Of a stretch of 64,000 nt of DNA, positions 7,081 through 54,600 are shown piece by piece. Location of the stretch: positions 930,001-994,000 of the forward strand of contig JAYJMM010000114.1 in the NCBI GenBank assembly GCA_037349105.1, given 5' to 3'. The translations under genes and the position numbers were made by a program. The notes beneath the pieces are model-generated. The model had not been told where the DNA came from, searched no databases, and was given only the letters and a program-made list of their open reading frames with translations. Source of the stretch: Limnomonas spitsbergensis. Its lineage: Eukaryota > Chlorophyta > Chlorophyceae > Chlamydomonadales. Position 1 is the first letter of the stretch. The number at the start of each line of letters is the position of its first letter.

Positions 7081-7583
7081 CCCCCCACTCCCTCTCCTCT
7101 CCACCAGACCCCCCTGGGTCTGCCGGGATCTCTTAACCCTAAACCCTCAACCCTTAAACAACCTCTGGTGTCCCCATCCCCACTCCAACTCCCTCTACTG
7201 TCCACCAGATCCCCCGGGTCTGCCGGGATCTCTTAACCCTCAACCCTTAAATAACCTCTGCTGTCCCCATCCCCACCCCCCACTCCCTCTACTGTCCACC
7301 AGACCCCCTGGGTCTGCCGGGATCTCTTAACCCTCAACCCTTAAATAACCTCTGCTGTCCCCATCCCCACCCCCCACTCCCTCTACTCTCCACCAGACCC
7401 CCTGGGTCTGCCGGGATCCCTTAACCCTCAACCCTTAAACAATCTCTGCTGTCCATATCCCCACCACCCCACTCCCTCTCTCACCACCAGGCCCCCCGGG
7501 TCTGCCGGGATCTCTTAACCCTCAACCCTTAAACAACCACTGCTGTCCTTATCCCCACCCCCCACTCCCTCTCTCACCACCAG
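7081..7583 (+). repeat. 94-bp tandem array of an acceptor plus exon start
   Basis: Units recur at spacings 100, 94, 94, 94 and 93 bp (TGCCGGG at 7121, 7221, 7315, 7409, 7503; TTCCGGG at 7596). Each holds a pyrimidine tract ending in CACCAG, then ACCCCCTGGGTCTGCCGG, then telomere-like TTAACCCTCAACCC. The last unit passes into a longer open reading frame at 7584. The array therefore looks like repeated copies of an intron 3' end plus the first bases of the following exon. Confidence 0.75.
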
Positions 7584-8600
7584 ACCCCCTGGGTCTTCCG
7601 GGATCTCCCCGTATCATGGGAGCGAGCGGGGCGCAACCTGGGGACGGGCGCGGAGGCGACGAGGCGGAGGGAGGCGGAGAGGGACCAACGGGGGACATGG
7701 CATCGGTATCTGAGGCATGGGCTGGAACAATATTCGCCTGCATCTCCATCCAAGCGGCTGCACTGGCGGGGTACGCGGCAATTTTATTTCAGGGTTCAAG
7801 GTTCAGGCTTCGGATTCAGCCATACAACTATACAAAACATGCGGGGCAGTGGGGCATGAGATCCATCCCTTGGGTATCAGATCCACTCCTAGGGTATTAG
7901 ATCCACCCCTTGAGTACTAGATCCACCCCTTAGGCATTAGCTCCACACATTGGTTATAAGATCCATCCCTTGGGCATTATAAGCCCCCTAGGGTTTTAGA
8001 TCCACCCTTTAGGTAGGACATCCACGTCTTGGGCATTAGATCCACCCCTAGGGTATCAGAACCATCCCTTAGGGTATGAGATCCACCCCTTAGGGTATGA
8101 GATCCACCCCTAGGACATAAGATCCCCCTCTTGGTTGTGAAAGCCACCCTAAAGGTTTTAGATCTACCCCCAGGGTATGAGATCTACTCCTTGGGCATGA
8201 GATCCACCTGTAGGCCCCCCTCATGCATCATTTTCAGATTTGCTGCCGAGGCCTCCCTGAATTGCTGGCAGCTACACCGCGCGCATGCAGCAGGGTCCTC
8301 GGCATTGGATAGCACGAGAGTCTACAAGGCCGCATTATTTGCTGATATGGAAGACTCCCTGGCCACGCTGCCGGCAACTGTCCGGTGGGTTTGGGCTTAT
8401 GGGGGGGAGGGGGCTGAGGGGAGGGAGACAGAAGGGGGCTTGCTGATCTAAGTGACGCCCGGAAGGGGAAGCTCAAGTGCTTTCTTCAGGGACTGACGGA
8501 TGCTGAGCTATTTGCCAAGATGACACAATACGAAGTTACAGATGAGGAACACCCGGACAGCATCACTGCCTCCCTGGATTTCATATATGAATTGTCAGGT
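7584..8600 (+). CDS. Candidate multi-exon gene fragment, product not recognised
   Basis: I do not recognise the product. Three exon-like blocks were found. Block 1 starts after CACCAG at 7584, encodes a charged stretch (TPWVFRDLPVSWERAGRN and a run rich in R and E) and has a possible donor at 7771. Block 2 starts after CATTTTCAG near 8239 and encodes MEDSLATLPATVR before a GTGGGT donor near 8383. Block 3 begins near 8452, encodes KCFLQGLTDAELFAKMTQYE and DSITASLDFIYELS, and ends at a CAG|GTGAGG donor near 8600. Blocks 2 and 3 join in phase across a TAAG acceptor; block 1 to block 2 does not join cleanly in phase, so a boundary is wrong or an exon is missed. It may be a real gene interrupted by repeats, or a gene fragment. 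Confidence 0.35.
7855..8215. repeat. 22-bp minisatellite (AGATCCACCCCTTAGGGTAT)
   Basis: About 16 diverged units with core AGATCCACCCCTTRGG. It lies in the presumed intron of the candidate gene. Confidence 0.75.
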
Positions 8601-8754
8601 GAGGAATATGTACTTGCGTGGGGGTTAACACCCTGAAGTTCAGAAACATTTTGTGGCATCTTCATCGCTTTCTCTATGGAAATAATGAATAGTGCAAATT
8701 CATATGACCATTCCCCGAACTGTTGGTCTCTGTTGATTTTTTGCTTTTGGTGTC

Positions 8755-8850
8755 ATTTACAAAAACGTTATTAAAGCTTCCGGTATAGATTGTCAAGAAA
8801 TCGTTGTTTGACGCCGGACGGAAGGCAATTCAAATCTACGGTAGTTGGTT
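8755..8850 (+). repeat. Dispersed repeat family Z, diverged copy
   Basis: Shares GACGCCGGACGGAAGGCAA and CAAATCTACGG with 54890-55010, and in reverse with 6180-6270. Confidence 0.45.
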
Positions 8851-13179: not shown

Positions 13180-13235
13180 CAATGACGTTACTACACCTCT
13201 GGGCCATGCTCAAAAAGCTCGGCCGCGTGGGCGCC
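13180..13235 (-). mobile_element. LINE 3'-tail fragment
   Basis: The reverse complement reads GGCGCCCACGCGGCCGAGC, a short T-rich linker, then GGCCCAGAGGTGTAGTAACG and TCATTGACC. It is the dispersed tail seen in full after LINE coding sequence at 46690-47098. Confidence 0.7.
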
Positions 13236-25568: not shown

Positions 25569-28159
25569 TGATGGAGTGGGCAGAGTTTATGAAGGCAAAG
25601 GGCATCACGCGCGTGGTGGGGTTGCTCAGCAAGTGAGTGAACGCTATCATGTGAGGTGGCCCAGTGTTGCGGCTGAACGATTGGCTTCCTTAAGCCATGC
25701 CCCATGGCAGTTTTTCGAATGGATGTCTGCAACAGTTGGCCGGAAGGTACCCAGAAGTTGCCCAAGAGCCACATAATATGCCTGGGGCAGGCGCAGTGTA
25801 CTGGTGCATTTCTTCTGGAGCAGAGTTAATACAAATAAATTCGTTCAAAGATGTGGATTGGGATACTCGATGCCCTGTATGAACCCTAAATCCGGAGCCT
25901 TCACGTGAAACCCGGAACATCTGTTCAGGTCGGAACGCGAGGATACCTACGGGCGACCACCTGCCCAAGTGCTGATGGAAGCCGGTTTCGTCGCTTGCAA
26001 CATCGATGTGGAAAACAACTCAGGTGCGCTTGCTGGTGGCTGAGGGCTGGAGCAGCAGGTTACGGGTGAGGGCGGCGAGCTGGGCCTGAAGAAATTAACA
26101 TGATTAGAGGTACCGATACTTTTTCCTTACTGAAATATAGGAGCTATGTTTCTGGGCTTTTGCGGGGCATGGCTGCGTGAGGGTAACGTGGGTTAAGGGT
26201 TTTAGGGTTAAGAGTTTAGGGTTTAGGGTTTGAGGGTTTATAGACATGTTGCATGATGGCTGGCTGCTGCTGCCCCTGCTGCTGCTTGTTGGTGCTGCAG
26301 AGGAAGGGACCCGCGCCGTCATCGCCGCTATCTGCGAAGCGACGCAGGCTCAGCAGAAGGTGGGTGGATGGAACGAGGAGGACGTGTCTGCGTTCTGAGG
26401 TGGTGGCTGCATTCAGAGGTGATGGCTTTGTGAAGCTCTATCACAAGTCCAGGAGCTGTTGACTTTTGGCATGGGCTATGCCCCTGGAGGCATGACGTCG
26501 CCTCGCTGGGGGGAGATACTATGTATGTATGTATGTATGTATGTATGTATGTATGTATGTATGTATGTATGTATGTATGTATGTATGTATGTATGTATGT
26601 ATGTATGTATGTATACTAAGTTGGACAGTGTTTTGTTCTCTGTTCCTGACTCTGCACGAGTGTGTTGCCCAGGACTTGTGGCTGTCGTTGACCATTTCAG
26701 AATAGACTGCCTTTCGTTTGCTGACCCTAAACCCTAACCCTAAACCCTGTTAAACCCTGAACCCTGCTTAACCTTGAACCCTCCCACTGGCAGGTGGTGG
26801 TCCACTGCTGGGGAGGCGGCGGCAGGGTGGGGAGGTTGCTCGCAGCATACCTGGTAAGGAGCTATCTTGCGTTTTTATAGGGACATGGCGCCTTCGGTTG
26901 CGATGGTGAAAGCATGCTGTGCGGCATCATGTGAGGTGCTGAGCTCGCGGGACTTGAGTCTCGAATATACGGCTACCATCCCCTGTTTTGTATCATGCCG
27001 ACACAAAGACATGGTTCATCGGCTCATGTGCGCATGCCCATGTGAGCGTGTGCTGCTTTTGTCACGTCCAGGGGAATCCTTCATTGTTTAAATTATGACA
27101 TAAAGAGGAGGGTATAATGTTGACATTTGTGCACCGTCGTCTCAGGGAGGACAAACCGCCGCTTTTGACCATCCATCCCATCCTGACAAACGTTTTCCTG
27201 ATTTTGCAGCCTAGTTTACAGCCCTTGTGGGGCGACTCCGGGTTCCAGCATGGGTTATAGACCTTACCATTTGCTACAAACGTCATGTGCAGCCCATCTT
27301 CTTGACCTGTTCCTATCTCTGCCTGTCAGGTGTTGCAGCTCATCTTCTTGACCTGTTCCTATCTCTGCCTGTCAGGTGTTGCAGCCCATATTCTTGACCT
27401 GTTCCTATCTCTGCCTGTCAGGTGTTGCAGCTCATCTTCTTGACCTGTTCCTATCTCTGCCTGTCAGGTGTTGCAGCTCATCTTCTTGACCTGTTCCTAT
27501 CTCTGCCTGTCAGGTGTTGCAGCCCATATTCTTGACCTGTTCCTATCTCTGCATGTCAGGTGTTGCAGCCCATATTCTTGACCTGTTCCTATCTCTGCCT
27601 GTCAGGTGTTGCAGCCCATATTCTTGACCTGTTCCTATCTCTGCCTGTCAGGTGTTGCAGCTCATCTTCTTGACCTGTTCCTATCTCTGCATGTCAGGTG
27701 TTGCAGCCCATATTCTTGACCTGTTCCTATCTCTGCCTGTCAGGTGTTGCAGCCCATATTCTTGACCTGTTCCTATCTCTGCCTGTCAGGTGTTGCAGCT
27801 CATCTTCTTGACCTGTTCCTATCTCTGCCATGTCAGGTGTTGCAGCTCATCTTCTTGACATGTTTCTATCTCTGCATGTCAGGTGTTGCAGCCCATCTTC
27901 TTGACCTGTTCCTATCTCTGCCTGTCAGGTGTTGCAGCCCATCTTCTTGATCTGTTCCTATCTCTGCCATGTCAGGTGTTGCAGCCCATCTTCTTGACAT
28001 GTTCCTATCTCTGCCTGTCAGGTGCTGCAGCACGGTCTGTCGCCTGAGACTGCCGCAGAAGAGATCACGGCGTACGCAAAGGACCAGGGCTCTTCCCGGC
28101 GAGTGGACGCCGCTGCACTCAAGGCTGCGCTGGGAAATGCCCCAGGTGTTGGGGTGTAG
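25569..28159 (+). CDS. Cys-based (dual-specificity/PTP-like) protein phosphatase, 5' end not defined
   Basis: Five exons join in phase: 25569-25632, 25929-26023, 26301-26359, 26794-26853 and 28022-28159 (stop TAG). Exon 1 here gives WAEFMKAKGITRVVGLLS, exon 2 RPPAQVLMEAGFVACNIDVE, exon 3 GTRAVIAAICEATQAQQK. Exon 4 carries the active-site loop VVVHCWGGGGRVG (HCx5R: Cys nucleophile, Arg phosphate binding). Exon 5 gives a helical C-terminus, VLQHGLSPETAAEEITAYA. The order matches small tyrosine or dual-specificity phosphatases of plants and algae. The residue after the loop Arg is Val where Ser/Thr is usual, which may weaken turnover. About 140 residues are visible; one or more 5' exons upstream of 25569 are missing, and the ATG at 25571 need not be the start. 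Substrate unknown. Confidence 0.75.
26160..26250. repeat. Telomere-like TTTAGGG tract in phosphatase intron
   Basis: GGGTTAAGGGTTTTAGGG and TTTAGGGTTTAGGGTTTGAGG, about 50 bp upstream of the acceptor of exon 26301-26359. Confidence 0.8.
26518..26616. repeat. (ATGT)n microsatellite, about 24 units
   Basis: Perfect GTAT tetranucleotide run in the phosphatase intron. Open frames across it encode CMYV repeats and are artefacts. Confidence 0.95.
26722..26790. repeat. Telomere-like CCCTAAA tract abutting an acceptor
   Basis: CCCTAAACCCTAACCCTAAA and relatives run up to the CCCACTGGCAG acceptor of the active-site exon at 26794. CTAAC in the repeat resembles a branch-point sequence. Confidence 0.8.
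27284..28021 (+). repeat. 46-bp tandem array copying the last acceptor of the phosphatase gene
   Basis: About 16 units of 46 bp (CATCTTCTTGACCTGTTCCT, ATCTCTGCCTGTCAGGTGTT, GCAGCC). The final unit is the true junction CTGCCTGTCAG|GTGCTGCAGC at 28021/28022. Every unit therefore carries the intron 3' end plus the first bases of the exon. Two unit types, CATATT and CATCTT, alternate irregularly. Confidence 0.9.
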
Positions 28160-32600: not shown

Positions 32601-35600
32601 CCTTTCAGTCAAAACCCTGCAGGCTTGCCTTAACCCCTTTCGGTCAAAACCCTGCAGGCTTGCCTTAACCCCTGTCATTCAAAACCCTGCAGGCTTGCCT
32701 TAACCCCTGTCAGTCAAAACCCTGCAGGCTTGCCTTAACCCCTGTCAGTCAAAACCCTGCAGGCTTGCCTTAACCCCTGTCAGTCAAAACCCTGCAGGCT
32801 TGCCTTAACCCCTGTCAGTCAAAACCCTGCAGGCTTGCCTTAACCCCTGTCAGTCAAAACCCTGCAGGCTTGCCTTAACCCCTTTCGGTCAAAACCCTGC
32901 AGGCTTGCCTTAACCCCTGTCAGTCAAAACCCTGCAGGCTTGCCTTAACCCCTTTCAGTCAAAACCCTGCAGGCTTGCCTTAACCCCTTTCAGTCAAAAC
33001 CCTGCAGGCTTGCCTTAACCCCTGTCAGTCAAAACCCTGCAGGCTTGCCTTAACCCCTTTCAGTCAAAACCCTGCAGGCTTGCCTTAACCCCTGTCAGTC
33101 AAAACCCTGCAGGCTTGCCTTAACCCCTGTCAGTCAAAACCCTGCAGGCTTGCCTTAACCCCTGTCAGTCAAAACCCTGCAGGCTTGCCTTAACCCCTGT
33201 CAGTCAAAACCCTGCAGGCTTGCCTTAACCCCTGTCAGTCAAAACCCTGCAGGCTTGCCTTAACCCCTGTCAGTCAAAACCCTGCAGGCTTGCCTTAACC
33301 CCTTTCAGTCAAAACCCTGCAGGCTTGCCTTAACCCCTGTCAGTCAAAACCCTGCAGGCTTGCCTTAACCCCTTTCAGTCAAAACCCTGCAGGCTTGCCT
33401 TAACCCCTTTCAGTCAAAACCCTGCAGGCTTGCCTTAACCCCTTTCAGTCAAAACCCTGCAGGCTTGCCTTAACCCCTTTCAGTCAAAACCCTGCAGGCT
33501 TGCCTTAACCCCTTTCAGTCAAAACCCTGCAGGCTTGCCTTAACCCCTTTCAGTCAAAACCCTGCAGGCTTGCCTTAACCCCTTTCAGTCAAAACCCTGC
33601 AGGCTTGCCTCAACCCCTTTCAGACAAAACCCTGCAGGCTTGCCCTAACCGCACATACAAAATCCTCCTCTTTACCTTTCCAACGATGACTGCCCCCTCC
33701 ACACCCGCGTTGGATGCGATGGTCTTCATCGGGACTTGCAGCGCGCTCTGAATGATCTGTGCAGGCGGGCAGCAGGAAGAGAAAATACAGATCAGACACT
33801 GACGCTTATGCCCACCTGCACTTCCACATCAACAGGCTAGCACATATCAGCCAGGCAGCAGACTGCCAGGACACCCCAGTGCCAGCCGAGTGCAAGCCAA
33901 GACTCGGAAAACCCCCTCGGTGCCAACTCCATACTGGTCCATCAGATTCCACCCCAAATAAAACTGTGAAGAATTTGCACGATTAAAGATCACCACAAGA
34001 CACACACACACGCACCAGTCTAACGAGTGAATTTGTCCAGCTTGGCCTAGACATCGCACTTGACCCCCCTCCTAGCAGAGAGCTACAGATTCAGAACACG
34101 AGCAGGACTTGCCCTTCCATTACCTGCACTCCGATCTTCTGGTCGAAGTTGTCCAGCTTGGCCTTGACCTCATCCAGCGTCTTGCTCGCGTGCAGCAGCG
34201 CGGCGCCGCCTCCTGGCACGATGCCCTCCTCGACCGCCGCCTTGGTCGCGTTGAGCGCGTCAGTCACGCGATCCTTCTTCTCACCGACCTGGACAGTACA
34301 GACCAGGAGGGGCGAGTAGGGTGCGTCAGGAAGAGTGACATAAGAATGAGAGAAGGGTCCTCCTTCTCACCCACCTGGACAGGACAGACCAGGGGGTGAG
34401 GAGGGTGCGTCAGGAAGAGTGACATAAGAATGAGAGGGGGGCCGCACGTCGCGAGGAAATCGGGAATGGAGCAAATTACGAGCCATGCTTTCTGTTCACG
34501 CGCACAGATGGCGCGTCCCCCTCCCTTCCCCCTCAACATGCACCACCACCACTCTCGCCTTGCATCATCGCTTTTATGCCCAACACTGATGTCATGCTGA
34601 GTGCCCGTTCCAGTGTTTTATTTAAGCCGCGGTATACCGCGATTCGCAACAGGGGGAAATCGACCCTGACCACCGCGGTAGAACCTAGGCTTCCCTCAAA
34701 TATACCGTACCATACTGGACACGCTTTTTATTTTGCATCCTTCTGAAGAACGGTGTGAAGAAGATAATTAATACATGGCATTTTCAAACTGTCCCTCTAG
34801 GCCTCTTACCTCAACCTCGCTGCCTCCCCCAATCTTCAGCACCGCAATGCCGCCCGACAGCTTGGCCAGGCGCTCCTGAAGCTTCTCCCTGTACATCAGC
34901 CAGCAGGCGGGGGCCAGAGGGGGATCAGGCGGCCGGCACACACACGCGCGCGCTAGGGGATCAGCGGGGTCGGGCGCAGATCAAACCAGGGGACAGATGG
35001 AGTCATGCAGCTATCGGCAGGCCCCGGCCATTGTGATCAGGTTTCGGGGTCAAGCACACTCAATCAGACTTGGTGGGTCTAGGCCCTGCCAGGGCAGTCA
35101 CTAAAGGCCTCCAAGGTCAGGTCCAGGTCCAGGTCCAGGTCAGGTCCAGGGCAGGCGTGTTTCACTTACATCTCTCTCGCTGCCTCCCCAGCACCCAACC
35201 CCGCTCTCAGCCCGCACCTGTCATAGTCTGAGGTGGTGGCCTCGATGGACTGGCGGATGCTCTCACAGCGGTCCTGGATGTTGGGCTTGCCGCCCCCCCC
35301 GTGCAGCAGGATGGTGTCGTCCTTGGTCAGCGTGGCGCGCTTGGCTGAGCCCAGGCTGCTCAGCTCCAGCTTCTCCAGCTTCATGCCTAGCTCCTCGCTG
35401 ATCACCTAGTTAGGGGTTAGAGGTTTAGGGTTTATTTAGGGTTAAGGGTCCAGCTTCTTCAGCTTCATGCCTGGCTCCTCGCTGATCACCTAGTTTAGAA
35501 TTAAGGGTTTAAGGTACAGCTTCTCCAGCTTTATGCCTAGCTCCTCGCTGATCACCTGGGAGAGGAGGTGAGAGGAAGGTGGAGGGTGGGGGACGGGACA

Positions 35601-38600
35601 CGCTGGCAGGGCAGGGCTAGACGGTGGGACAGGACAGGACTGGACAGGGGCGGGACAGGGGAGGGGGCCATGGAGGGGACATGGTACATCGGGGCGGGGC
35701 GGGGCGGGGCGGGGCAAAGTGGTGGGGCAGGGCAGGACAGGTGAGGACGGGAAGGTGAAGGGGCGGGACGGGGTGGGACAGGGCAGGGCGGGACGGATGC
35801 GCACTTTAGGGTCCCATAATTAGGAGGGATTCTCCTTGAGAGAGCGCAGCAGTACAGAAGTACAGCTGCATTGCCCTGTACGTCAACTCCACCCTAACAC
35901 CTGTCAGCACAACAAAATCCAGTCCCCCCGCGAGCCCACCTCCCCCCCGTTTACGTCACCTCTGGGCTTACTCAGCACAACAAAATCCAGTCCCCCCCAG
36001 CTAGCCCACCTCTCCCCCCGCTAGCCCACCTCTCCCCCGCTAGCCCACCTTTCCCCTGCTAGCTCACCTCTCCCCCGGTCAGCGCTGCAATGTCCTGCAG
36101 GTTGGCCTTGCGGTTCTCCCCGAACCCAGGGGCCTTGACTGCGGCGATCTTGAGGCCCGCGCGCAGCTTGTTCACGATGAGCGTTGCGAGCGCCTCGCTC
36201 TCCACGTCCTCGGCGATGATCAGCAGCGGCCGCTGAGCCGCCACCACCTTCTCCAAGATGGGGAGCAGGGACTGAAGGCTGCAAGGGGGTAGGGCTTGGA
36301 TATTCAGGATAAGGGTGAAAGGCTTAGGGTAGGCAGGATGGGCCGCTACCACCCAATCCAGGATGGGCAGCAGCGACTACAGGCTGCAAGCGGGTGGGGT
36401 TTGAGGGTTCATAATCAGGGTACGGTTGAGCAGGACAGGTTGCCAAGCCGCCATTGCGATTTCCAGTGAGGTGGCAGGGACTGCAAGCTACAAGGGGGTA
36501 GGGTACGAGGATTCAGGATGAGGGTGAAGGATGTGGACAGGATGGGCCGCTGAGCCACTACCACCGGTTCCAGGGCGGACAGCAGGGGCTGCAGGCAACC
36601 AGGTGGGAGGGCTTGGGGATTCAGGATGAGGGCGAAGGGCATAGGGTGGACTCCATGCAGACCCACCCCGCGATCTTCTTCTCGCAGATGAGGATGAGCG
36701 GGTTGTCCAGCTCACACTTCATCGTCTTCTGGTCCGTAACGAAGTAGGGACTAATGTAGCCACGGTCAAACTTCATGCCCTCGACAACCTCCAGCTCATT
36801 CTCCAGAGTCTTGCCATCCTGTCAAGGACATGAAACGGGGGAGTCAAGAGTGCAATGCAGCATGAATCACACTATTTGCCCTCCACAGCTGTCAACTCGT
36901 TTTCAAGCATCTTGTTGTCCTATCAAGGTCCTTTCAGACTGGTGGGGTCACAGTGTCACACTTCATGCCCGCGGCAACCCTCGCCTCCTCCTCGAGCGTC
37001 TTGCGGTCCTGGAAGAGGACAGCTCAGCGATCCTCTCTTTGAGGGAACTCGAGAATTCAGGGTTTAAGGTTCAAGGTTGAGGATTAACCTGAACCACGGT
37101 CTCGCTGCAACCCTGTTCAAACTCCTTAAGGCGTTTACGAATCAGGTTTGAAGGTCATGCGTTAGGGGGAACCTTCAACACAGATCTCACCGCCACCATG
37201 ATGATAATCCTCGTTGTAGGCCTTGGGTTTCAGGGTTCCAGGTTTATGCCTAACCTGACACCAGGGGCCTGACAACTTATCTCTGCGTGACCGTAATGAC
37301 GTTCTCCTCGCCAGGTGAAGGGTTTACCGCTGGACCTTCAACTGAGGTCCGTGATTGTGATGACATCCTCCTCGAGGTACAGGGTTTCAGGCACCGGGTC
37401 AAATCCTTAACCCTCTGCGCGACCGTTATGACACCCTCCTTGCAAAATGAGGGTGTTACGCTAGACCTTCAACCCAGGCCACACCGTGATCGTGATCAGT
37501 GTTTCTAGTTCCGGCTACAAATGGCCACATGTAGCAGACCGCCCCGCGGCCACCGAAGGCCCCATTGGCTGGAGTGTAGCTGACATGAAGCTGAGACACG
37601 AAAAAAGGAACACTGATCGTGATGCCATCATCCGAGCAAGGTTGAAGTTTCAACGTAAGACCACAAACCATTGCCTTACCGGGTCAAACTGGGACATTCA
37701 TGACACTCTTCTTGTAGAGTTCAAGGTTGAGGGCTCAAGGCTATGGGGAAGGGTAAAAATCGGACACCGCAACTGTGATGACGCCCTCCTTGCAAGGGGA
37801 AGGGTTTACCTCTGGACCTCAACGAAGGTCGGACCTTGGACCTGATGACATCCCCCTTGCAAGGTTGAAGTTTCAACGTAAGACTTCAAACTGATGCCTA
37901 ACCGGGACCTTGATAACACTCTTCTTGTGGAGTTCAGGGTTGAGGGTTCAAGGTTACGGGGTGAGAGAAAAGCTTTAAACAGTGTCTCACCGCGACCGTG
38001 ATGACGCCCTCCTTGCCGACCTTCTCCATTGCGCGGGCAATCAGGTCACCGATCTCGCGCTCACCGTTGGCGCTAATGGTGCCAACCTGTGAGAGGACAT
38101 CGAGGGGGGGGCGGAGGAGGAGGCCAGGGATAAGGCGGGCAGTGGGCGGCAGCCCATCGCACAGGTCGTGCATGACGTGGGCCTTGCTGGCATGAGATCG
38201 CTCCATACAAGCGTTAGCTATCCATGCAAGCCGCACCCCGTTCCATGTCTATAGATCTTGAGCTCCCCCAGTACAGCATCCCCGTATACCCAATTACCAA
38301 TCCTTGGTAGCGCTAGTTAGGGTTTAGGGTTAAGGTTCAAAATAGCACTACGCGTACCTTTCACTTCCTAGTGCTGTTGACCAGCCTACTCCTTGACCCA
38401 TCCAGGAGACTTCTCACTGCCCCACTGAGAGCTAGGAGTGAGATGCCCAGTAGAAAAATGCATAGTTGTGACCCTGACCCTCATCCAGCCATATCTTTAG
38501 AGATGAGGGTCAGAGGGCTCAGAACCCTGAGCCCTTAACCCACCTGGGCAATCTCCTCCGTGGTGGAGATCATCTTGGCTCGGCTCTTGAGCACCTGGTG

Positions 38601-39677
38601 ACACCACATGAGAGGGCATGGGTGACATGGGGATAGAGAAAGCAAGGAAAGCCCAAGAGTACCTCACTCAGTCTCTATCCGGCAAGGAGGGGTCTGACAG
38701 ACGGTCTCTGGAAGTAAGCAAAGCCTCCACAGACGGCACCCACCTTCACAACATGCTCCACAGCAATGTTGATTCCCCGCCGCAGGTCCATGGGGTTCAT
38801 CCCTGCAGCCACAGACTTGCAGCCCTCGCTCAAGATGGCGCGTGTCAGCACGGTTGCGGTGGTCGTGCCTGTCACAGGCGCGCAAGTGCGGTACATTTCT
38901 TGTGTCGGCAACTAGCTTGGCAACATGGTGCATGGCACATCAGCTTTACAGCTGAATTGCTATGCAGCATGGAGTTTATGCACCATCTTCCAGCTGTGCG
39001 TGCTCTTATGTGCCAGTGGCATGCACACAGGCGACCTGGCTACCACACATTCGCCATGCATGATTCACGGCCCCCTCGCTCGCCACTTACCATCGCCAGC
39101 CACATCGTTGGTCGCTGATGCCACCTGCTTGACGAGATTAGCCCCGATGTTCTCGAACTTGTCCTTGAGCTCGATGGCTTTGGCGACTGTAACTCCGTCC
39201 TTGGTAATCTTAGGGCCACCATATGACTGCTCGATCATAACATTCCTTCCCTGGAATAGGTGGCATGGATTGCATGGGTGTGATACGTGGATGTGCAGTA
39301 GCCAAGACGCGTCTGCAGACATCGTCCCCGGTGGCAACCGCACGCCATACCTTGGGGCCCAGAGTCACTTGCACGGCATCGGCAAGCTTGTTGACCCCTG
39401 CCAGGACAGCTTCTCTACATTCGATTCCGAATCTAACGTCCTTGGACGCGTAGGCTCGAACGATCTGGTTCAAGAAGGTCTGCGATCGTACAACAGCATA
39501 TTGTGAGGCCGTCTCATAGCTGATAAATATTTTGTACCATCATTTCGATCGTAACATGTGATCGGCATGAAGCATTGTGGTTTATAATGGCAGGTGCTGT
39601 AGCAGGGGCGGATTCCGTCGCACCTGACTGTTGCTCTTGCTGCCCGAGCCAAGGATGGTTCGGCCGATGGTCTGCAT
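29674..39677 (-). CDS. HSP60: Mitochondrial chaperonin HSP60 (Cpn60), 14 exons, 569 aa
   Basis: Group I chaperonin that folds imported matrix proteins with its Cpn10 co-chaperonin. Exons on the minus strand: 39624-39677, 39351-39479, 39091-39250, 38744-38868, 38544-38594, 37991-38086, 36667-36818, 36068-36278, 35218-35405, 34810-34888, 34124-34288, 33676-33756, 30536-30628, 29674-29799. All phases match and total 1710 nt with stop. The start [10 protein letters not shown] opens a presequence ending near RAYA, before SKDVRFG, which is mitochondrial and not plastid style. The ATP site DGTTTATVL follows AGDG (residues about 114-122); the Cpn60 signature [12 protein letters not shown] is at 432-443. 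Length is normal, but the C-terminus ends [10 protein letters not shown] without the usual GGM repeats. Introns hold satellites, two MITEs and copies of splice junctions. Confidence 0.95.
30640..30790 (-). repeat. Tandem copies of the intron end before HSP60 exon 13
   Basis: On the minus strand TTGCTYRATTTAG recurs three times, each preceded by GCAAAGCCCCTGCTTCAATT. The last copy is the real acceptor of exon 13 (CGATTTAG|GTTCTGG). The copied part is intronic; the exon bases are not included. Confidence 0.75.
31103..31279. mobile_element. hAT-type MITE, copy 1 (HSP60 intron 12)
   Basis: A 177-bp element with TGACTCAGCTGCATATCAG near the left end and a GGCCGGCCC palindromic centre. It is flanked by TTTCCTTG (31095-31102) and GTTCCTTG (31280-31287), a 7 of 8 target duplication. 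Same family as 37497, 53428 and 61727. Confidence 0.7.
31405..33655. repeat. 35-bp minisatellite, about 64 copies, in HSP60 intron 12
   Basis: The unit is AAAACCCTGCAGGCTTGCCT followed by TAACCCCTKTCRGTC, exactly 35 bp (12 units per 420 bp). Three main variants differ at CTGTCAGTC, CTTTCAGTC and CTTTCGGTC and are interspersed. The unit contains telomere-like CTTAACCCC. There are no unique spacers. Confidence 0.95.
34290..34440 (-). repeat. Duplicated acceptor and start of HSP60 exon 11
   Basis: On the minus strand a decoy GTCCTGTCCAG|GTGGGTGAGAAGGAGGA (34360-34390) precedes the real TACTGTCCAG|GTCGGTGAGAAGAAGGA at 34288. About 75 bp of flanking intron (GTCAGGAAGAGTGACATAAG on the plus strand) is duplicated too. 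Confidence 0.85.
35406..35565 (-). repeat. Triplicated acceptor and start of HSP60 exon 9
   Basis: On the minus strand GTGATCAGCGAGGAGC, GGCATRAAGCTG and GAGAAGCTG occur three times, after CTCTCCCAG, AAACTAG and AACTAG. Spacers are telomere-like (CCCTAAATAAACCCTAAACC). Only the last copy (35405) runs into the full exon. All three keep an AG acceptor. Confidence 0.9.
35575..35800. repeat. G-rich low-complexity tract in HSP60 intron 8
   Basis: GGGACAGG and GGGGCGGGGCGGGGC runs on the plus strand (C-rich on the transcribed-sense strand). It could form G-quadruplexes on the template. Confidence 0.7.
36279..36612 (-). repeat. Quadruplicated acceptor and start of HSP60 exon 8
   Basis: On the minus strand the true junction is CCTTGCAG|CCTTCAGTCCCTG at 36278. 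Upstream lie copies near 36386 (CTTGCAG|CCTGTAGTCGCTG), 36490 (CTTGTAG|CTTGCAGTCCCTG) and 36598 (CCTGCAG|CCCCTGCTGTCCG), about 105 bp apart. Each continues with 25-50 bp of diverged exon sequence and a shared intron piece (TTCACCCTTATCCTGAAT). Confidence 0.9.
36840..37015 (-). repeat. Triplicated acceptor and first half of HSP60 exon 7
   Basis: Decoys on the minus strand: CTTCCAG|GACCGCAAGACGCTCGAG (about 37012) and TTGATAG|GACAACAAGATGCTTGAA (about 36942). The real exon is TTGACAG|GATGGCAAGACTCTGGAG (36818). The copied exon segment extends about 45 bp, to GAGGGCATGAAG in the first decoy. Confidence 0.9.
37140..37990 (-). repeat. Repeated exon 6 3' edge and donor in HSP60 intron 6
   Basis: Variants of AAGGAGGGCGTCATCACGGT and CGCG|GTGAGA, the exon 6 end at 37991, recur about eight times: near 37195, 37295, 37355, 37435, 37625, 37780, 37845 and 37915. 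Some keep a GT (GTGGCG|GTGAGAT near 37190); others lost it (GTCGCGCAGAG). Shared spacers such as TTGAAGTTTCAACG are repeated with them. Confidence 0.85.
37497..37615. mobile_element. hAT-type MITE, copy 2 (HSP60 intron 6), perfect 8-bp TSD
   Basis: A 119-bp element with ends CAGTGTTTC and, inverted, CAGTGTTCC. ATCGTGAT flanks it on both sides (37489-37496 and 37616-37623). It is inserted within one of the repeated exon 6 edges (CCGTGATCGTGAT). Confidence 0.85.
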
Positions 39678-41194: not shown

Positions 41195-41960
41195 CCTAGA
41201 TGGACCTAGATGAACCTAGATGGACCTGGATGAACCTAGATGGACCTGGATGGACCTGGATGGACCTGGATGGACCTGGATGGACCTGGATGGACCTGGA
41301 TGGACCTAGATGGACCTAGATGGACCTGGATGGACCTGGATGGACCTGAATGGACCTGGGTGGACCTGGATGGGACTCGATGGGCCTCAATGGACCTGGA
41401 TGGACCTGGATGGACCTGGATGGACCTGGATGGCCCTAGATGGACGTAGATGGACCTGGATGGACCTAGATGGACCTGGATGGACCTGGATGGACCTGGA
41501 TGGACTAGATTGACCTGGATGGACCTGGATGGACGGATGGACCTGGATGGACCTAGATGGACCTGGATGGACCTGGATGGTCCTGGATGGACGGATGGAC
41601 CTGGATGGACCTAGATGGACCTGGATGGACCTGGATGGACCTAGATGGACCTGGATGGGCCTGGATGGACCTGCATGGACCTAGATGGACCTAGATGAAC
41701 CTAGATGGACCTAGATGGACCTGGCTGGACCTAGATGGACCTAGATGAACCTGAATGGACCTAGATGGACCTGGATGGACCTGGATGGACCTAGATGGAC
41801 CTAGATGGACCTGGATGGACCTAGATGGACCTGGATGGACCTAGATGGACCTGGATGGACCTGGATGGACCTAGATGGACCTGGATGGACCTAGATGGAC
41901 ATGGATGGACCTAGATGGACCTGGATGGACCTGGATGCACCTGGATGGACCTAGATGGGC
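41165..41960. repeat. 10-bp minisatellite TGGACCTRGA, about 78 copies
   Basis: Long array of TGGACCTGGA and TGGACCTAGA. It opens frames encoding DLDGPGWTWM repeats, which are not genes. It lies between the divergent HSP60 and NOT2 genes. Confidence 0.95.
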
Positions 41961-42886: not shown

Positions 42887-45618
42887 ATGCTAAACCAAAC
42901 TGGGCTAGACCCATCGCGGGCGCAATCATTTGGTCAATCAGTTAATGCTGGATACAATGCTCCGTACACACTAGGTGAGCCCATGCATCTCACTCCCGAC
43001 CAGGATAGAGCCGAACTTGAAAGGATTTCCCTGCTCGCCCCGCAGGTGGCAACCTACCGAGCTCACTACACGGGAATGGGATGCAGTCGCAATTAGGTGG
43101 AAGGTGAATTACAATGTCTTCTCATGCATTGTATGCACTTCGGGCTTGTGCTGACGACTTGTGTTTTTCGGGGGTGGACAATTCAGAGGCATGGCAGGTG
43201 TGCAAATTGCAGGAGGAGCTGCCACTGGTTCTCAGCAAGTTGGCCAGGGGAGATTTCCGCAAGCTATCCCAAGCAACGTGCAGCAGGTAAAATAATGCCG
43301 AAACCCGCGTTTTGGGTCCAAAATCGTAGCCGTGAGTTCGCGGTCCCACATGCTGTGATGTATGCCAAGACTCGCAACTCGCTTTACATGGTGCTGTGTC
43401 GCAGCTGGGTCAGTACCCGCAGCAGCGTCAGGGCACGCTTGGGAACGCGTCGAGCTTGTCCAACGGCATGGCAGCAGCAGCTGCAGGTGTGCGGGGTGGT
43501 GGCATCGGGAACATGATCCTGGGGAATCCAGGGCTGGCATCGACGACGATGCGGCCTGGTGGTGCGAACCTAGGAGCTGCAGGCAACAACCTGAACATCC
43601 ATGGCTACGGACAGACCGGCCCCATCGGCTCGCAACAGCAGCAGCAGCTCAACACAACCCGGGTGCCCGTAGGGGGAATGGCGGGTAACCTGCAGAACAC
43701 GGGGCGCATCGGACTTGGTAACGTTCTGCAGCAGCAGCAACAGCAGTCGACCGCGCCCGGCGTCAATCCGTCGCAAGATCTGCTTTCGATCATCGGCGGG
43801 CGGCAAAAGCTGGGCGCCGGGGTGGGCTTCGGGGAAGCAGGTGGCCTGAGTTCCGTGGGCAGCTTCCAGGAAGAGTTCCGCAGGCGAGGGCAAGATGGCC
43901 TGCCCGAGGACGGTGGAGGACCAGGGCCGCTGGATGAGACAAACTATCCCACGTTGGGCGGAGGGGCAGGCGGACGTCTGCAAGCGGGCCTCCCCGGCAC
44001 CTCAGAGCAGTCCTCGCATCTTGGCATGCGGAAAGGCGCAGGCCCGGGTGGCCACGGCTCGGAATTCTCCATGCAGAATGAGGACTTCCCAGCGCTAGGC
44101 GTTGTGCAGCGCGGAGACGGGGCAGGGGGCGGGGGTGGATACCCTGGCCTGGCTGGGGGAGGTGGGCGGGGCGGTTTCCCGCTATTAGGTGGAGGCGGCG
44201 GTGGAGCGGCCGGAGACCAGCAAATGCACGGTGGCGGTGGCGGCCAGACGGGATCTGCAGAGTACGACCAACAGCAGCAGATGCTCCGGTTTCAACAGCA
44301 GCAGCAGCAGGGACGCTCGGCAGCGGCAACGGCGGGCGCTGCATTGCGAGATGCCTCGGGGGCAGTCCCAGGCGGGCCGGGCGCCCTGCAGGACCGGGCA
44401 GGTGCAGCCGTCGCGGGCGCGCCGGACCGATTCGGTCTGCTCAGCCTCATGCCAATACTCAAGATGACGGACCAGAACTTGTCGATGCTGACGTTGGGCA
44501 CGGATCTAACCAGCCTTGGGCTGAACCTCAATGCGACGGAAAGCCTCCACCGCTCCTTTGCCTCGCCGCTATCCGACAGCCCGGTCAAGGTGGAGCCCGA
44601 GTTTGAGCTGCCGACCTGCTACCGCCACAACCCTCAGCGCCTGCAGCCGGGCTACCTCGGCAAATTCAAGGTAGTGACCGGGTCTTGCCCTGGGCCTTGC
44701 CTCCTGATTTCTGCATGCATGCTTTGTTGGTTTGAAGTTTGAGGAAGCTCTGGGCCTCCTGATTTCTGCATGCATGCATGCATGCATGCATGCTGCACTA
44801 GGAGGCCAGACCCAGGGCTTTGAAATGCATGCATATTTGCATGCATGGAATCATTTCTGAATAAGAAGCCGGGCTAGAAATCAATGAAACAACCAGCAAT
44901 CATAGACCAGCAAAACAGGAAATGTACGAGGTGAAGCTGAGTGGACTGCGTGCACACGCCGTGCATGGCCTCCTATGCAAACATAACCAAGTTGCCAAGC
45001 TAAGTCCTGCAAGTGGCTGCCGTCCTCATCACGACGTGGCCCGTTGCTGGGTTCCTACCCTTCAGAATATTTTAGCTTCAGCCATTAGGTGATCAAACAC
45101 CGCCTGATCCTTGGCACCATGCCCTTGTCTGGAGGAGACGCACTTCTTTGCCTTCTAGTGAATGCTGCTTGAGGAGTCCCAGTTTGTGAAGGCGGCTGTA
45201 GGCCGCGATGTCCGTGAATTGTTAGCTGCGGCCCTTTTTTGATAAACAGCTGCCCCCTCTGCCATTCTAGGAGGAGACGCTGTTCTACGTCTTCTACTCG
45301 ATGCCGCTCGAGGAGGCCCAGTTTGTCGCTGCCGACGAGCTGTATGCGCGCGGCTGGTTCTGGCACCGGCGCTTCAAACTCTGGATGATCGCAGCGCCTG
45401 GGGCGACAGCGCCGCAGAAAACGGGCCGCGGGGAGCGCGGCTCTTACCTGGTGTTTGACCCAACGGTTTGGGAGGTGGTGCCGCGGGAGGTGGAGGTGGT
45501 GTATGAGGAGCTGGAGCAGCACCCGCGACTGCCGCGGCCGAATAAACAAGTGGCTGGAGGGCCAGGGGCCCCTGGACAGCAGCAGCAGCAACAACAACAG
45601 GTCTCGGGGCGGCATTGA
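42887..45618 (+). CDS. NOT2: CCR4-NOT complex subunit NOT2 (CNOT2), 4 exons, 599 aa
   Basis: Scaffold subunit of the CCR4-NOT deadenylase, which shortens mRNA poly(A) tails; NOT2 pairs with NOT3/5 and docks on NOT1. Exons: 42887-42974, 43189-43286, 43405-44670, 45271-45618; phases agree and total 1800 nt. The N-terminal 400 residues are low-complexity, rich in G, Q and A (poly-Q runs). They contain two short NOT2 motifs, LDETNYPTLGG and FSMQNEDFPALG, equivalent to the FPAL motifs of animal CNOT2. The NOT2/3/5 domain spans about 402-580: DRFGLLSLMPILKMTD, LTLGTDLTSLGLNLN, FASPLSDSPVK, LFYVFYSMP, ELYARGWFWH, GERGSYLVFDPTVWE. A short Q-rich tail ends at TGA. The ATG used is the first in frame; an upstream coding exon is possible. 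Exon 2 uses a CAGAG acceptor. Confidence 0.93.
44767..44848. repeat. GCAT tetranucleotide runs in NOT2 intron 3
   Basis: TGCATGCATGCATGCATGC at about 44767-44793 and again ATGCATGCATATTTGCATGC near 44825; self-complementary. Confidence 0.85.
45125..45210 (+). repeat. Diverged copy of the start of NOT2 exon 4 in intron 3
   Basis: CTGGAGGAGACGCACTTCTT, CTTCTAGTGAATGCTGCTTG and AGGAGTCCCAGTTTGTGAAG parallel the true exon 4 start (GGAGGAGACGCTGTTCTACG and CGAGGAGGCCCAGTTTGTCG). The offset is about 135 bp and the copy has lost its acceptor (CTGG for CTAGG). Confidence 0.85.
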
Positions 45619-48685: not shown

Positions 48686-51600
48686 ATGGACGATCTAGAT
48701 GATGCCGGGACCGACTACTATGCGACCCTGAACGTCTCACGCGAAGCAAGCCAAGATGAGGTCACCAAAGCTTACCGCAAGCTTGCTTTCGTGTTTCACC
48801 CGGATAAGCATCAAAGCCGGGATCTAAAGGACGGTGCCCAAGAGGCCTTCAGCAAGCTGCAGGAGGCGTATGAAGTCCTCAGCGACGAACAGAAACGACA
48901 GATCTATGATATCTACGGAAAACAGGTGCGGCCTGGCGAGCCATGGAAAGAGCCCTACGACCCTGCGACCACAAGGCTTGCAGTGGGCCTGTCATAGCAA
49001 CTATTCCTCAAGGGCAGGGGATGATAGCAGCTCACCTTCAAATGGGGTGCCATGGATGGATGCCATGCGTGATGCGTGACTGCAGCATGTGTCGCCTGGT
49101 GTCACGAGCGTGCTCTCAGGGTACTCGTGAGCATGCATGGGGATGGCCGAGCCTCATGTTGCCATGTGCATGCGCCTTGGGCCTCTCCTGTACAGCTCCT
49201 GCTGTAGCAGCCATGTCTGGCAATCTTTGGGAATACGCAGCGCCATGCAGCGGGAACTGGTCTGCCCTTCATGTGAAATATGCCATCCATGCCAATTACA
49301 CACTACCAGTATCTCTGGTATCCATTAAGTAAGGACAGCGCAGTATTGATCATTTGATTACTTTGGCTACGAGCAGTGCAGGTTCCAATATGACCGATCG
49401 AGGCCAAACCTTGGCCTGCCAGCAAACATAGGCCCAAGCAGCATGGCTGGTCGCGCATGGGGCCTGTGGACGCAGGCCATGAGGTAGCTGTAATGTAGGC
49501 CAGCCACGCTAAGGAAGCACTTGACCAAAGCAGCCTCCTATGCAGTCATGAAGCTCAGCGGAGCAGCAGGACCCTCGCTGCCAGCACCCACGCGCATAAC
49601 CCCGGGAGACGCCACTGTCATTCTTGCTCTGATGTTCAGAATACTCCTTGCTGGATGCCGGGAGTGGCCCGGATCAGATCCGGGGATCGGATCTTTCTAG
49701 ATAGACTGGCCAGTGGTCTCCCACTCTTACGACGGGGACTGAAACATTCAGGAGTGACAGCACACCTCATCGACACAAAGAAAGGCAATCGCTCCGTCAC
49801 TCCTATCCTGACTGCTCAACCTGCGTGAGTGTCACTGCCCATCTCACGTTCAATCTGTGCTTTTCCGCTGTACCCCCATCAGGGACTAGCTGCTGGCTTC
49901 GAACTTGGCGAGCGGCTGCGCAGGTCGGTGGGCGCCTGTGATTATACCAAAGTATTTAGTTGGAGCGGCAATCAGGGAGGGGGGGGACTTAGGGCCATGG
50001 TCCGAGGACTGGGGAGCAAGACTGGGCTCACTGCTTGCTCCGTCATTTTTCCTGCTGCTTGCCATTCCTCGGATAGACTGGGGCTGATGGCATCTTAGTT
50101 GTGGGCCGCTCCGCCAAAAGCTGCAGAAGCGTGTGTTTCCAAATCTCTCTCTGGGACTGAGGGTGGTTGCGCCACGGGCATGGACTTGGCTCGCATGCTA
50201 CGCCGCCTTTCTGTGATGGTGCATAAGGGATGTAGACATAAAGTCTTACAGCGTTCATTTCGAATGCCTTGCCTTAATTACCGAGGCCCCTGCACACAGA
50301 GCATGGGCTGTGGGAGGCAGAGGTTGAGTTTGTGCTCGCGTCTCACGATGCCTCTTCCCTATCACCCCCTGCCCACTTGCCAAAGCATGCCTCCTCTGGG
50401 GCCTCTGCCCACACATTGCCATGGGTGTGTATCCCCTTGCCAGCATTCCTGCTTGGTGCGCCCTCTCTTGGTCAAAATCGTCATCCGCTCCCCTTCCACT
50501 CACGTGATGTTTTTGTCCATGTCCATGCTCATGTCGATACCCATGCGCATGCCGCATGCCCATGCTGCATTTCAAGCCTCTCTCTCTCTCTGGCACTCCT
50601 GCTCACTTCCCTGCTCCTGCTGACCCCCCCCCCACTTACCCACACACTCCCCCGCTCCCGCTGCAACAGCCGCGAGGAGCTCAAGCAGGAGTGGGAGGAG
50701 TTTAAGCGGAAGCAGGATCAGGCCAAGGCCGAGAGCTCCACAGTCATCAAGGGCTTGTACCAGTGCCGCATCGACGCCACCGAGCCCATGAGACGCGGTC
50801 TGGTGGTGCGGTCCATCGTGGTCACCAACTCGTCGGATGCAGCGGTCGGGGACAATGGCGACATCATGCACGTGCAGGTCAGAGGCGGCAGGTTTTCTCT
50901 AAAACCTTGGTTTGGGTGCACAGCTTCTCGGCAGGTTCTACTATTCTTCGCCCTGTCCTCGACAAGTTCTGATGACCTTGTCTGTCCGGTTGTTTATTTT
51001 GTTGGGCCAGTCCACTGGCCCAAGCAGAAAGCTAGCTGTACTGAGCCCTTCCGGACGCAGGCCAGGTTGTTGCTGAGTTGTAGCTTAAGCCCCCGGAAGT
51101 AAAGACGACATAGCTGCCCTCCTGCTTGTCGGCATAGCCTTTGGCTTCCTGACTGACATGGCGCCAACCCTAGACCCTGAACCCTGTCCCGCCCTGCCCG
51201 ACAGGGCCAGGCGGCGGTTCGTAACCAGGCCGGCTCTGGAAACATTGTGTTTGGCTACACGCGGCAGCACAGTCCCAACGACTCGGTGACCGGCATGGCG
51301 GTGCTGGGGCTGCGCTCGCTGTTGACGCTTACCTCCACGCGGCAGCTGGACCCACACACCGTGGCGACGTCGGTGCTGTCTTGGGGGCCGCAGGACGGGC
51401 TAGGGCTTCAGGTGGGTGTGCATGGGGCTTCATGTGGGTGGCCATTATGGGTTTAGGGTTTAGGGCTTCAGGTTGGTGTGCATTATGGGTATAGGGTTAA
51501 GGGCTTCAGGTTGGTGTGCATTATGGGTATAGGGTTAAGGGTTTAGGGCTTCAGGTTGGTGTGCATTATGGGTATATGGTTTAGGGTTAAGGCTCCAGGT

Positions 51601-54600
51601 TGGTGTACATGTACATTATGGGTTAAGGGTTTAGGGCTTCAGGGTGGTGTGCATGATGGGTGTATGGTTTAGGGTTAAAGGCTCCAGGTTGGTGTACATT
51701 ATGGGTTAAGGGTTTAGGGCTTCAGGTTGGTGTGCATTATGGGTATAGGATTTCGGATTGTATCCGTGAATATGTGATAAATCTTGTGTCGGGTAGATCT
51801 CGTGTGAATCGTGTGTGGATTTTGTGCAGTCCATCAGAGCATCACCACTTATTGCATAAGACAGGTGCCGGCAAGCTGGTTCGAGCATTGAATAAAACAG
51901 GCTCGCGCCACGCGAGTGGAGAAACAGAGATATCTGCAATGAGCAGTGCCACCAGCCTATTCCTGTGATCTGCCACTGGTTTTCCGCCATTCTATTTGTA
52001 GCTCGATGATGATCCAGCCCGCCCCGAACTCTGGGGGCTGAAGCCCTGCCAGCTCATTACCTTCCGATCACCTTCTGTTGCCTGTTGACCATACCTCTGC
52101 CAGCTCATGACCTTCCGACCACCTTCCGTTGCCTGTTGACCATACCTCTGCCAGCTCATCACCTTCCAACCACCTTCCATTACCTGCTGACCATGCCTCT
52201 GACCGGGCTGCGTGTTGTGCTGCTCGCTGCTCAGCTCGGCACGACACGGCAGATGCCGTACGGCTGCACTGGGACACACACATGGGTGCTCGGCCCCCAA
52301 GGTGCTGCTGGGATGTCACTCCAGGTGAGAGCGAGGTCACACATTCCACACTAGTCTCCCACCCCAGGTCACTCACATTCAGCTGAGCAAGGGCAGCAAG
52401 ACCGCTCCATGTGGGTAAGCTTGCGAGGCACATGTGTGCGCCATCCATCCCTTTTGCCATGGCGTCTGTCTCAGGGTATTTGGGATACCAGCGTACGGTG
52501 CTGAGGATTTTGTGTGATGCTGGGAATTTGCATCGGCAGAAGCAAGGAGCTCGTGCTTGCCTGTGCTGTTGACTGTGTTTTGCAAGGTATGTACTTAAAA
52601 CATTATTATAAGCCTTGTCTTTAGTTACTTCTTGTTATAAGGATTTGACTTGATAAGAAGTAACTAAATACAAGGCCTTGATTATGTTTAAGTGCCAATT
52701 GGGTTGGACGCTTACTGAGCGCTGAGCCCTGCTGGTCCCCTGATGCATGAGGCATACATGCCTGCCCATAGCCAGAGGAGCCCCCGCTGACACACACACT
52801 CACACACACACGCATACTTCTCCTCATTTCCATTATACTATGCCTCCACCTTCTCCATCCCTGCCCCCAGTCCGCATGCCGTCCTCTACCCCCTATCCCC
52901 ATCCCCTTCCCCTGCCTGCACCCCATCACACACCCCCCCCCCTATCCCTGCCCCCCTGTCCCATGTTCCTCACCCCGTCCCCCATCCCGCTTCCCTGCTT
53001 GGTTCACTCCCCAGCCCCCTGCCTGCCCCCCTCCCCTCCTATAAATAAACAAATACGCCCTGAGGCGTGGATTAAAGAAGCCACCTGTTGGGCCGTCGCA
53101 CTAGGTGAGCTACCATACCCCCTTCTATCCCCCCCCCCCCCTCTGTCCCATGTTTCTCATCCCGCCCCTCGTCCTGCTACCCCACTTAGTTCACCCCCCA
53201 GCCCCCTGCCTGCATCTCCCCCCTCCTACCCCCCCCCTCTGTCCCCTCTCCCTCATCCCGCCCCTCGTCCCCAATGCGTGCAGGTCACTAAGCGTGGGAA
53301 CCGTGCAGTTTTCCAGGGCAAGGTGGAAGTGGGCGCAGTCACGGCCCTGTCAGCGAGGGCGACAGTCATGGTGAACAGCTCAGTCAGCCTGAGGGCAGTG
53401 GTAAGTGCAGAGCTTGCAGCATAGGAGCAGATTTTCCTTTTTGCGTGACTCAGCTACTTGTCAGCTACACTCAGGCCTCTGGCTGGGGGCCCACTTGTGG
53501 CCAGCCATGCTGCTTTGGCGACCAGTGTTAGGCCGGCCCAAGTTTGGTTATAATCGGGCCTTCTGCGGCCGTGGGTCGGCCTGCCGGAGGTGGACTTGGT
53601 CGGAAAAATAAACTCAGCACAGGAGGGGGTACGAGACATGCAGCAACGGCCCTGTCAGTGCGGGTGACAGGCATGGTGACCAGATCTGTCAGACTAAGGA
53701 CAAGGGTGAGTGTAGACCTTGCAGCATAGGAGGGTAAGAGACATGCAGTCACGACCCTGTTATGTCGACCAGCTCAGTCAGCCTGAAGACATGGGTGAGT
53801 GCAGACCTTGCAGCATGAAGGGCACCCTAGCACACCACGCATGCAGTCGCGGCCCTGCCAGCCTTGGCCAATGGGCCACTGGCCACTGGCCACTGGGCCA
53901 CTGTCATGGTCCACACAAGCGTCATAGTCCTCCGGGGTGTAGGGTGTAGCGTCTATAGACTCCGGCACCTCTACTGATCAACGCCTGAAGGTGCGTATGG
54001 TGGCGTGCTCCAGATTAGGGGCATGTGCTGATGTATGCCCAATGGTGCGTTTGGTGGTGTGCTTCATATCCTCATTGGCGGTCCCCGGTGGCCTGTAATT
54101 AGCAAGGCTTGATGTGTCAGGCCCTCCTAATCTCGGGCCGTGATGTAGCTGAGTTGTAGCTGATGCACCCTTAACCCTAACCCTAAACTAGGATGTAGCT
54201 GAATTGTAGCTGATGCACCCTAAAATATGCCCTTGCCGCCTACCAGTGCTCCTTTGAGTCGGCTCAAGGTGCCCAGGTGTTCATTCATGAAGTTTCCAGT
54301 GGCTTACCATAACGCGCCCGTGCCTTTTCTGTCAAGGCTGGGGACAGTGCCATTCGAACCTCTCGCTCTCGTCTGAGAGGGCATGGCCTACTGCACCTCA
54401 TGTCTCCTTTCCTGACCCTTCACCCTACACCTTACACCGCACCATGCAGGAGGGTGTAACTGCTGCCCTGGACCTCATGATCACATGCATCCTACCTTAT
54501 CCCTCGCCCCCTCCCCGCCCCAATGACACTGCAGGCTCGTGTAGGATCCACAGGCGTAGATGTAGAGGTTGGCGCCTCCAACCGCTTCAGTGAGCATGTC

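Follow-up and report, generated by a model that had tools for sequence, protein, structure and literature searches.

Tandem copies of exon edges and splice junctions in introns of the snow alga Limnomonas spitsbergensis

Copied exon-intron boundaries in a 64-kb window

The window analysed here is a stretch of 64,000 nucleotides (nt) of the Limnomonas spitsbergensis genome (contig JAYJMM010000114.1, positions 930,001 to 994,000), in which pieces of exon-intron boundaries recur as extra copies within the adjacent introns of several genes. An initial annotation had listed such copies at junctions of genes for HSP60, NOT2, DNAJC11 and a phosphatase as well as in an array before position 7584, and every junction named there does carry them. 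The largest set belongs to the HSP60 gene (29674..39677, minus strand), for which an exon model was drawn by eye from the sequence. It comprises 14 exons that form one open frame when joined, are bordered by GT-AG junctions and give matches to PF00118. Exons 1 to 7 are located at 39677-39624, 39479-39351, 39250-39091, 38868-38744, 38594-38544, 38086-37991 and 36818-36667, and exons 8 to 14 at 36278-36068, 35405-35218, 34888-34810, 34288-34124, 33756-33676, 30628-30536 and 29799-29674.

For the detection of copies, junction probes of at most 80 nt were compared with the adjacent intron (blastn, E<0.01). Seven of the 26 HSP60 junctions gave matches: the donors of exons 6 and 8, the acceptors of exons 7, 8, 9 and 11, and the donor side of exon 11. 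All of these copies lie on the minus strand. The end of exon 6 with its donor recurs within 37185..37793 (37765-37793, 37418-37443 and 37185-37204, with weaker copies in between). Exon starts together with their acceptors are present in two copies for exon 7 within 36877..37021 (36955-37021 with 76% identity, 36877-36928 with 71%), in three copies with units of about 105 nt for exon 8 (36339..36615), in two copies of 96-98% identity for exon 9 (35449..35557) and in one copy of 92% identity for exon 11 (34358..34393). The exon 8 donor is represented by 19-nt repeats (35995..36039) with an exonic share of about 9-10 nt, and the copy on the donor side of exon 11 (34029..34055) corresponds to a segment 22-48 nt from the donor, the junction itself lying outside it. 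In a shuffle test restricted to 30 exonic nt, donor 6 and acceptors 8, 9 and 11 scored above all 100 shuffles, and acceptor 7 (20 vs. 22) and donor 8 (18 vs. 20) did not. With 60 nt donor 8 passed clearly (54 vs. 22), and acceptor 7 failed again (27 vs. 29).

Two further repeats were seen in the HSP60 introns. Intron 12 carries a 35-nt array of about 64 units with 98% identity (31422-33650) which reaches no exon, and a 57-nt array (30661-30809) ends near the exon 13 acceptor; judged by eye, its units are acceptor-like intron ends without exon.

The remaining copied junctions of the window are on the plus strand. NOT2, supported by a Pfam match, has one 57-nt copy of an exon start (45131..45187, 81% identity; true acceptor 45271). 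This copy starts at the last intron base and has TG in place of AG, i.e., it is an exon edge without a splice site. In DNAJC11, the J domain of which is supported by Pfam, the end of exon 7 with its donor (junction at 53401) is copied within 53401..53862. Two copies of 93 and 58 nt (53640-53732 and 53759-53816, 82-83% identity) extend across the junction, and a third of 20 nt (53843-53862) is exonic only. Five copies of the exon 4 donor (junction at 51412) were found within 51412..51749. The last acceptor of the phosphatase gene (28022) is the end of an array of 46-nt units (27288..28031); 15 copies besides the original were found where about 17 had been announced. The name of this gene is the label given by the initial annotation, and no Pfam match to its two scanned pieces exceeded the cut-off. 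At both the DNAJC11 exon 4 donor and the phosphatase acceptor the exonic share is only about 10 nt per unit, and both failed the exon-only shuffle test (22 vs. 25 and 15 vs. 23, respectively). A 94-nt array (7037..7607) stands before the AG at 7583 and a putative exon following it; five copies share up to 24 nt past the AG. The listed copies are thus confirmed, with limits at NOT2, at the two arrays with an exonic share of about 10 nt and at the array before 7584.

Exon-edge copies and tandem arrays in a genome sample

The assembly of L. spitsbergensis sampled here contains 260,226,709 bases in 124 contigs. For this Arctic snow alga a genome of 260,248,090 bp in 124 contigs with a largest contig of 10.736 Mb was published, assembled with Canu from PacBio continuous long reads (CLR) and polished with Illumina reads; introns of its merged annotation average 788 bp, and IsoSeq data are also reported (PMC11228838). 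Outside the window, 32 loci were fetched via profile matches to PF00118, PF00225 and PF00012. Of the 72 PF00118 matches, the two within the window were left off the sample list, and matches overlapping an earlier one were skipped. HSP70 matches (88 in total) were usable in seven loci and kinesin matches (139 in total) in ten; the loci L025, L026 and L027 yielded no junction pair. Introns were predicted from the DNA alone by frame-aware pairing of adjacent exon matches combined with splice-site weights, which gave 62 introns from 11 CCT/cpn60 and 10 kinesin loci and 40 introns from the seven HSP70 loci. Together with the 26 HSP60 introns of the window gene and its paralog L024 the sample amounts to 128 introns, 125 of which begin with GT and three with GC. 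Ten introns shorter than 150 nt were excluded from the edge profile, leaving 118, and four shorter than 120 nt from the list of copies, leaving 248 junctions.

In the edge profile, 30-nt segments taken close to each junction were matched against the intron, with shuffled introns serving as control. Among the 96 introns outside the HSP60 pair, the first 30 nt of the exon were copied in 21, the last 30 nt in 13 and either of them in 28, which confirms that unrelated genes in other parts of the genome contain copies as well. These figures supersede an initial profile of 80 introns that included the HSP60 pair (25/80 and 17/80). An exon-edge copy was present in 16 of 29 kinesin introns, in 11 of 29 CCT/cpn60 introns and in one of 38 HSP70 introns; for introns of at least 600 nt the proportion was 17/28. 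The rate fell towards the exon interior, to 4/96 at +30 and 0/347 at +60 to +90 on the acceptor side, and to 5/96 at -60, 2/96 at -70 and 3/449 at -120 to -80 on the donor side. Intron-interior segments, on the other hand, were copied at a rate of 0.17-0.18 (263/1587 on the acceptor side, 262/1452 on the donor side). Copying thus hits exon edges at a far higher rate than exon interiors and, per 30-nt segment, at about the rate of intron sequence. At acceptors the edge was copied more often than the adjacent intron from -100 to -40 (paired P=0.0096, HSP60 pair excluded). A coarser test with edges taken from the hidden Markov model (HMM) matches, HSP60 pair included, yielded 16/89 for acceptors, 8/89 for donors, 1/146 for mid-exon and 24/142 for random intron segments. 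The seven HSP70 loci (L038-L044) have short introns with a median of 246 nt, and one long-period array was seen in their 40 introns.

Since a long array of many units pushes up the per-segment rate of introns, arrays were also counted once each with TRF. A total of 103 arrays was obtained, 75 with a period of 15-45 nt and 28 with a period of 45-300 nt. An array was classified as straddling if it crossed a junction and took in at least 8 nt of exon. This applied to 17 of the 28 long-period arrays, which reach 18-58 nt, once 96 nt, into the exon. Outside the window 16 of 25 long-period arrays straddle a junction, seven at acceptors and nine at donors, whereas 8.2 would be expected if single units fell at random within the same introns (P=5e-4) and 7.2 under a stricter null model with 40 nt kept upstream of the acceptor (P=7e-5). 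The short-period arrays outside the window did not exceed the looser null (4/60 vs. 3.1 expected, P=0.37) and leaned towards junctions under the stricter one (4/60 vs. 1.7, P=0.081; with the window 5/67 vs. 1.8, P=0.029); eight of the 75 lie wholly in exons and were excluded from the placement test.

A second background was provided by the density of long-period arrays, which is 0.40/kb in introns and 0.20/kb in the gene flanks (16 in 79.8 kb), the latter possibly holding unrecognised exons. Arrays in the intron interior (11 in 70.8 kb) are about as dense as those in the flanks. From the flank density 4.2 and from the intron-interior density 2.7 straddling arrays are expected; the 16 observed correspond to a 3.8-fold excess over flanks (confidence interval 1.8-8.1, P=2e-4) and a 5.9-fold excess over intron interiors (2.5-15.2, P=1e-5). 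For arrays with at least 2.5 copies the excess over flanks is 4.3-fold (10 vs. 2.3 expected). The proposed concentration at boundaries consequently appears with long-period arrays, at about four to six times background, but not clearly for single 30-nt segments. Under the refuting condition named in the initial annotation, applied to 30-mers, exon edges surpass random exon segments by far and, at acceptors, the adjacent intron, but they do not clearly surpass random intron segments, which counts against the proposal.

Fate and origin of the copies

Copies often follow each other at tandem spacing, e.g., 82 nt six times or 89 nt eight times. The latter case is found in the kinesin gene L033, which lies 15 kb from its tandem paralog, the kinesin gene L032, on contig C124 and has one intron in common with it. 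In L033 this intron measures 1190 nt and contains the donor plus 49 nt of exon repeated eight times in 89-nt units with 96-100% identity; the counterpart in L032 measures 534 nt and lacks such an array, so that the difference in length is a recent one. Copy number was compared between these paralogs only (eight donor units vs. none). The L033 donor and its copies start with GC, and the fresh units hold about 14 nt that, judged by eye, are absent after the last unit and possibly represent end-joining filler. In the 128 introns, the window's included, the extra units of straddling arrays make up 7.1 of 70.8 kb. The suggestion that such arrays let introns grow is therefore borne out.

The copied splice sites decay like their surroundings. 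AG is kept in 45 of 62 junction-spanning acceptor copies and GT in 38 of 52 donor copies, compared with 45.9 and 40.4 expected from the identity of the copies, those within one array not being independent. As a purely descriptive mean per junction, AG is retained at 0.80 vs. 0.835 for neighbouring bases (27 junctions) and GT at 0.90 vs. 0.88 (18 junctions). The copied sites behave as expected under neutral decay, and selected redundancy is not clearly supported. AG|GT was enriched neither at array acceptors nor at array donors (Fisher P 0.47 and 1.0), and recursive splicing was rejected for lack of such an excess.

Probably, though by no means certainly, the arrays are best explained by tandem duplication across existing junctions followed by expansion and neutral decay inside the intron. 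Short stretches of DNA, mostly 57-195 nt, would be duplicated in tandem over a splice junction and may then expand. Since the duplicate lands in the intron, the exon would stay intact and the intron would lengthen. The exon-adjacent splice site would stay in use, and the extra copies would decay like any neutral stretch of the intron. Splicing at the exon-proximal site is suggested by the HSP60 gene, where this choice gives an open and conserved protein. Use of the exon-proximal site would fit exon definition.

Part of this anatomy would also be expected if tandem duplication were blind to boundaries, with arrays arising anywhere, being purged in exons and tolerated over junctions. Units of about 100 nt are long compared with introns of a few hundred nt, and many would therefore straddle a junction by chance. 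We regard this as rather unlikely while giving it some weight: the similar rates of edge and interior 30-mers and the absence of an excess of short-period arrays under the looser null agree with it, but the long-period arrays exceed both same-intron placement and flank density, and short-period arrays also lean to junctions under the stricter null. Moreover, a boundary-blind simulation, with parameters chosen by us and slower exon change included, gave edge-to-interior ratios of about 0.3 for acceptors and 0.38-0.55 for donors, below the observed values of about 1.3 and 0.75; it serves as a guide and not as a fit. Junction arrays might, alternatively, merely be visible for longer. Conservation of the exonic copy would keep old arrays at junctions recognisable when those in the intron interior no longer are. 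This follows from exon constraint, and divergent copies with 71-80% identity do occur at junctions. It seems improbable as the source of the excess, however, which is as large for arrays of at least 2.5 copies, detectable from their intron copies alone, and the simulation had allowed for slower exon change. We infer that the excess arises from biased mutation at exon edges and not from such arrays surviving longer.

Selection for redundant splice sites, which the initial annotation had offered as one possibility, is not borne out by the dinucleotide counts. Spare sites might be retained as backups or serve as decoys in regulated splicing, and many copies do keep AG or GT; in addition, 22 of 52 donor lags are multiples of three, as are a number of the array periods. 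The agreement of the counts with identity-based expectation argues against such selection, and so do the retention per junction, which resembles that of neighbouring bases, the acceptor lags, only 11 of 62 of which are multiples of three, and the missing AG|GT excess (lags and periods being raw counts). Altogether we consider it very improbable. An assembly artefact is hardly credible: long reads of the CLR type assembled with Canu can miscount near-identical array units, but most copies differ by 5-25% from the original, a divergence that misassembly does not create.

Several observations weigh against junction-straddling duplication with a boundary bias. The pattern is not uniform, the HSP70 introns being nearly free of copies, and per 30-mer the edge rates are near those of the intron interior. 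Behind the fold excess stand 16 arrays from 11 loci and 16 from the flanks. Among the straddling arrays, nine of 17 periods are multiples of three, about 5.7 being expected by chance. A further set of points, some in favour and some against, comes from the HSP60 paralog L024 on contig C84, which has 14 exons with the same exon lengths and intron positions as the window gene. Exon-edge copies were detected at eight of its 26 junctions (alignments <20 nt omitted), five of which coincide with the seven of the window gene, namely, by intron number, 6 donor, 6 acceptor, 7 acceptor, 8 donor and 8 acceptor; this overlap (P=0.014) speaks for the explanation. Once weak matches are counted, the overlap drops to P=0.051. 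By pairwise identity the copies are nearer to the exon of their own gene at the exon 8 acceptor and the exon 8 donor, and weakly so at the exon 9 acceptor; the exon 6 donor favours neither paralog, and at the exon 7 acceptor those of L024 are nearer to the exon of the window gene than to their own. Separate hits on the two paralogs thus appear to be borne out only partly, and gene conversion inside each gene would imitate a separate origin.

Diverged gene pairs on different contigs were observed repeatedly, for HSP60, CCT, cpn60 and HSP70 (the window gene with L024, L018/L019, L022/L023, L026/L027, L042/L043) and likewise for NOT2 (contigs C114 and C84), which suggests a large-scale duplication or a hybrid origin. 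Such pairs allow a speculative and quite doubtful account of the bias, in which the end of homology between diverged paralogs makes each exon edge a hot spot of tandem duplication. Repair synthesis templated by the paralog, with exons aligning and introns mostly not, would run out of template at the exon edge; the strand would re-anneal some tens of nt back within the exon and recopy the junction repeatedly. If this were true, introns genome-wide would grow from their own borders.

Relation to known repeats and further features of the window

By their anatomy the algal arrays are mirages, a term used for minisatellite-like tandem repeats straddling exon-intron boundaries in amphioxus Adh3 and in the globin genes BflGb6 and BflGb9. 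The amphioxus report gives unit lengths of 150-160 nt for BflGb6 (identity 81-100%), 157 nt for BflGb9 and 10-72 nt for Adh3, states that many but not all units keep AG/GT and that copy number differs between haplotypes, and describes splicing as apparently undisturbed in reverse transcription PCR (RT-PCR) and the mechanism as unclear (PMC3087553). The algal units, too, combine exon and intron sequence of one boundary (the NOT2 copy excepted), occur at acceptors and donors alike and keep the splice dinucleotide in many but not all cases. Unlike the mirages, described there in a handful of genes with RT-PCR, the algal arrays are known from DNA alone, affect 28 of 96 introns and come with a measured junction excess and decay of splice sites.

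Tandem repeats at exon-intron boundaries are also described for human segmentally duplicated genes, where variable repeats alter the intron structure and 27 intron modifications are listed. There, units average 30 bp, the genes are recent paralogs and novel introns are proposed, in contrast to the alga, where introns pre-exist and grow and the exon is unchanged (PMC2812944). The AGGT model likewise invokes tandem genomic duplication over sequence resembling splice sites, but derives from it a new intron out of duplicated exon (PMC3443670), whereas the algal intron is older than its array. A new intron of this type was rejected for HSP60, the one gene examined in this respect, as both paralogs have introns at the same positions with and without arrays. 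For green algae, tandem repeats were found to be denser near intron-exon junctions; the abundant intron motifs in the consulted portions of that study are dinucleotides, and copied exon edges are not described in them (PMC3887541). The literature searched yielded no description of such arrays from a green alga, as far as the accessible text of the papers goes (including PMC3887541, PMC8226300 and PMC11228838). Within these limits, what is new is the occurrence in this lineage, how frequent the arrays are, the excess measured at boundaries and the finding that copied splice sites decay.

The arrays represent a common and visible route of intron lengthening. They also provide a natural set of junctions at which the splicing machinery meets several near-identical sites in a row, and the IsoSeq data of L. 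spitsbergensis could reveal the site chosen at each individual junction. Classical experiments with duplicated splice sites reportedly tested this choice in few constructs. If the four- to six-fold boundary excess holds, it would also suggest a mutational process that recognises exon edges or is limited by them.

Three further features of the window were noted. At 40621-41958 a tandem duplication of 287 bp is followed by a 10-nt repeat (TGGACCTGGA) of about 81 units. An open reading frame at 413-1261 encodes a PHD finger (PF00628, E 9e-10) and is possibly part of a mobile element. From 60100 to 63000 the plus strand carries reading frames with proline-rich stretches, which presumably resemble pherophorins.

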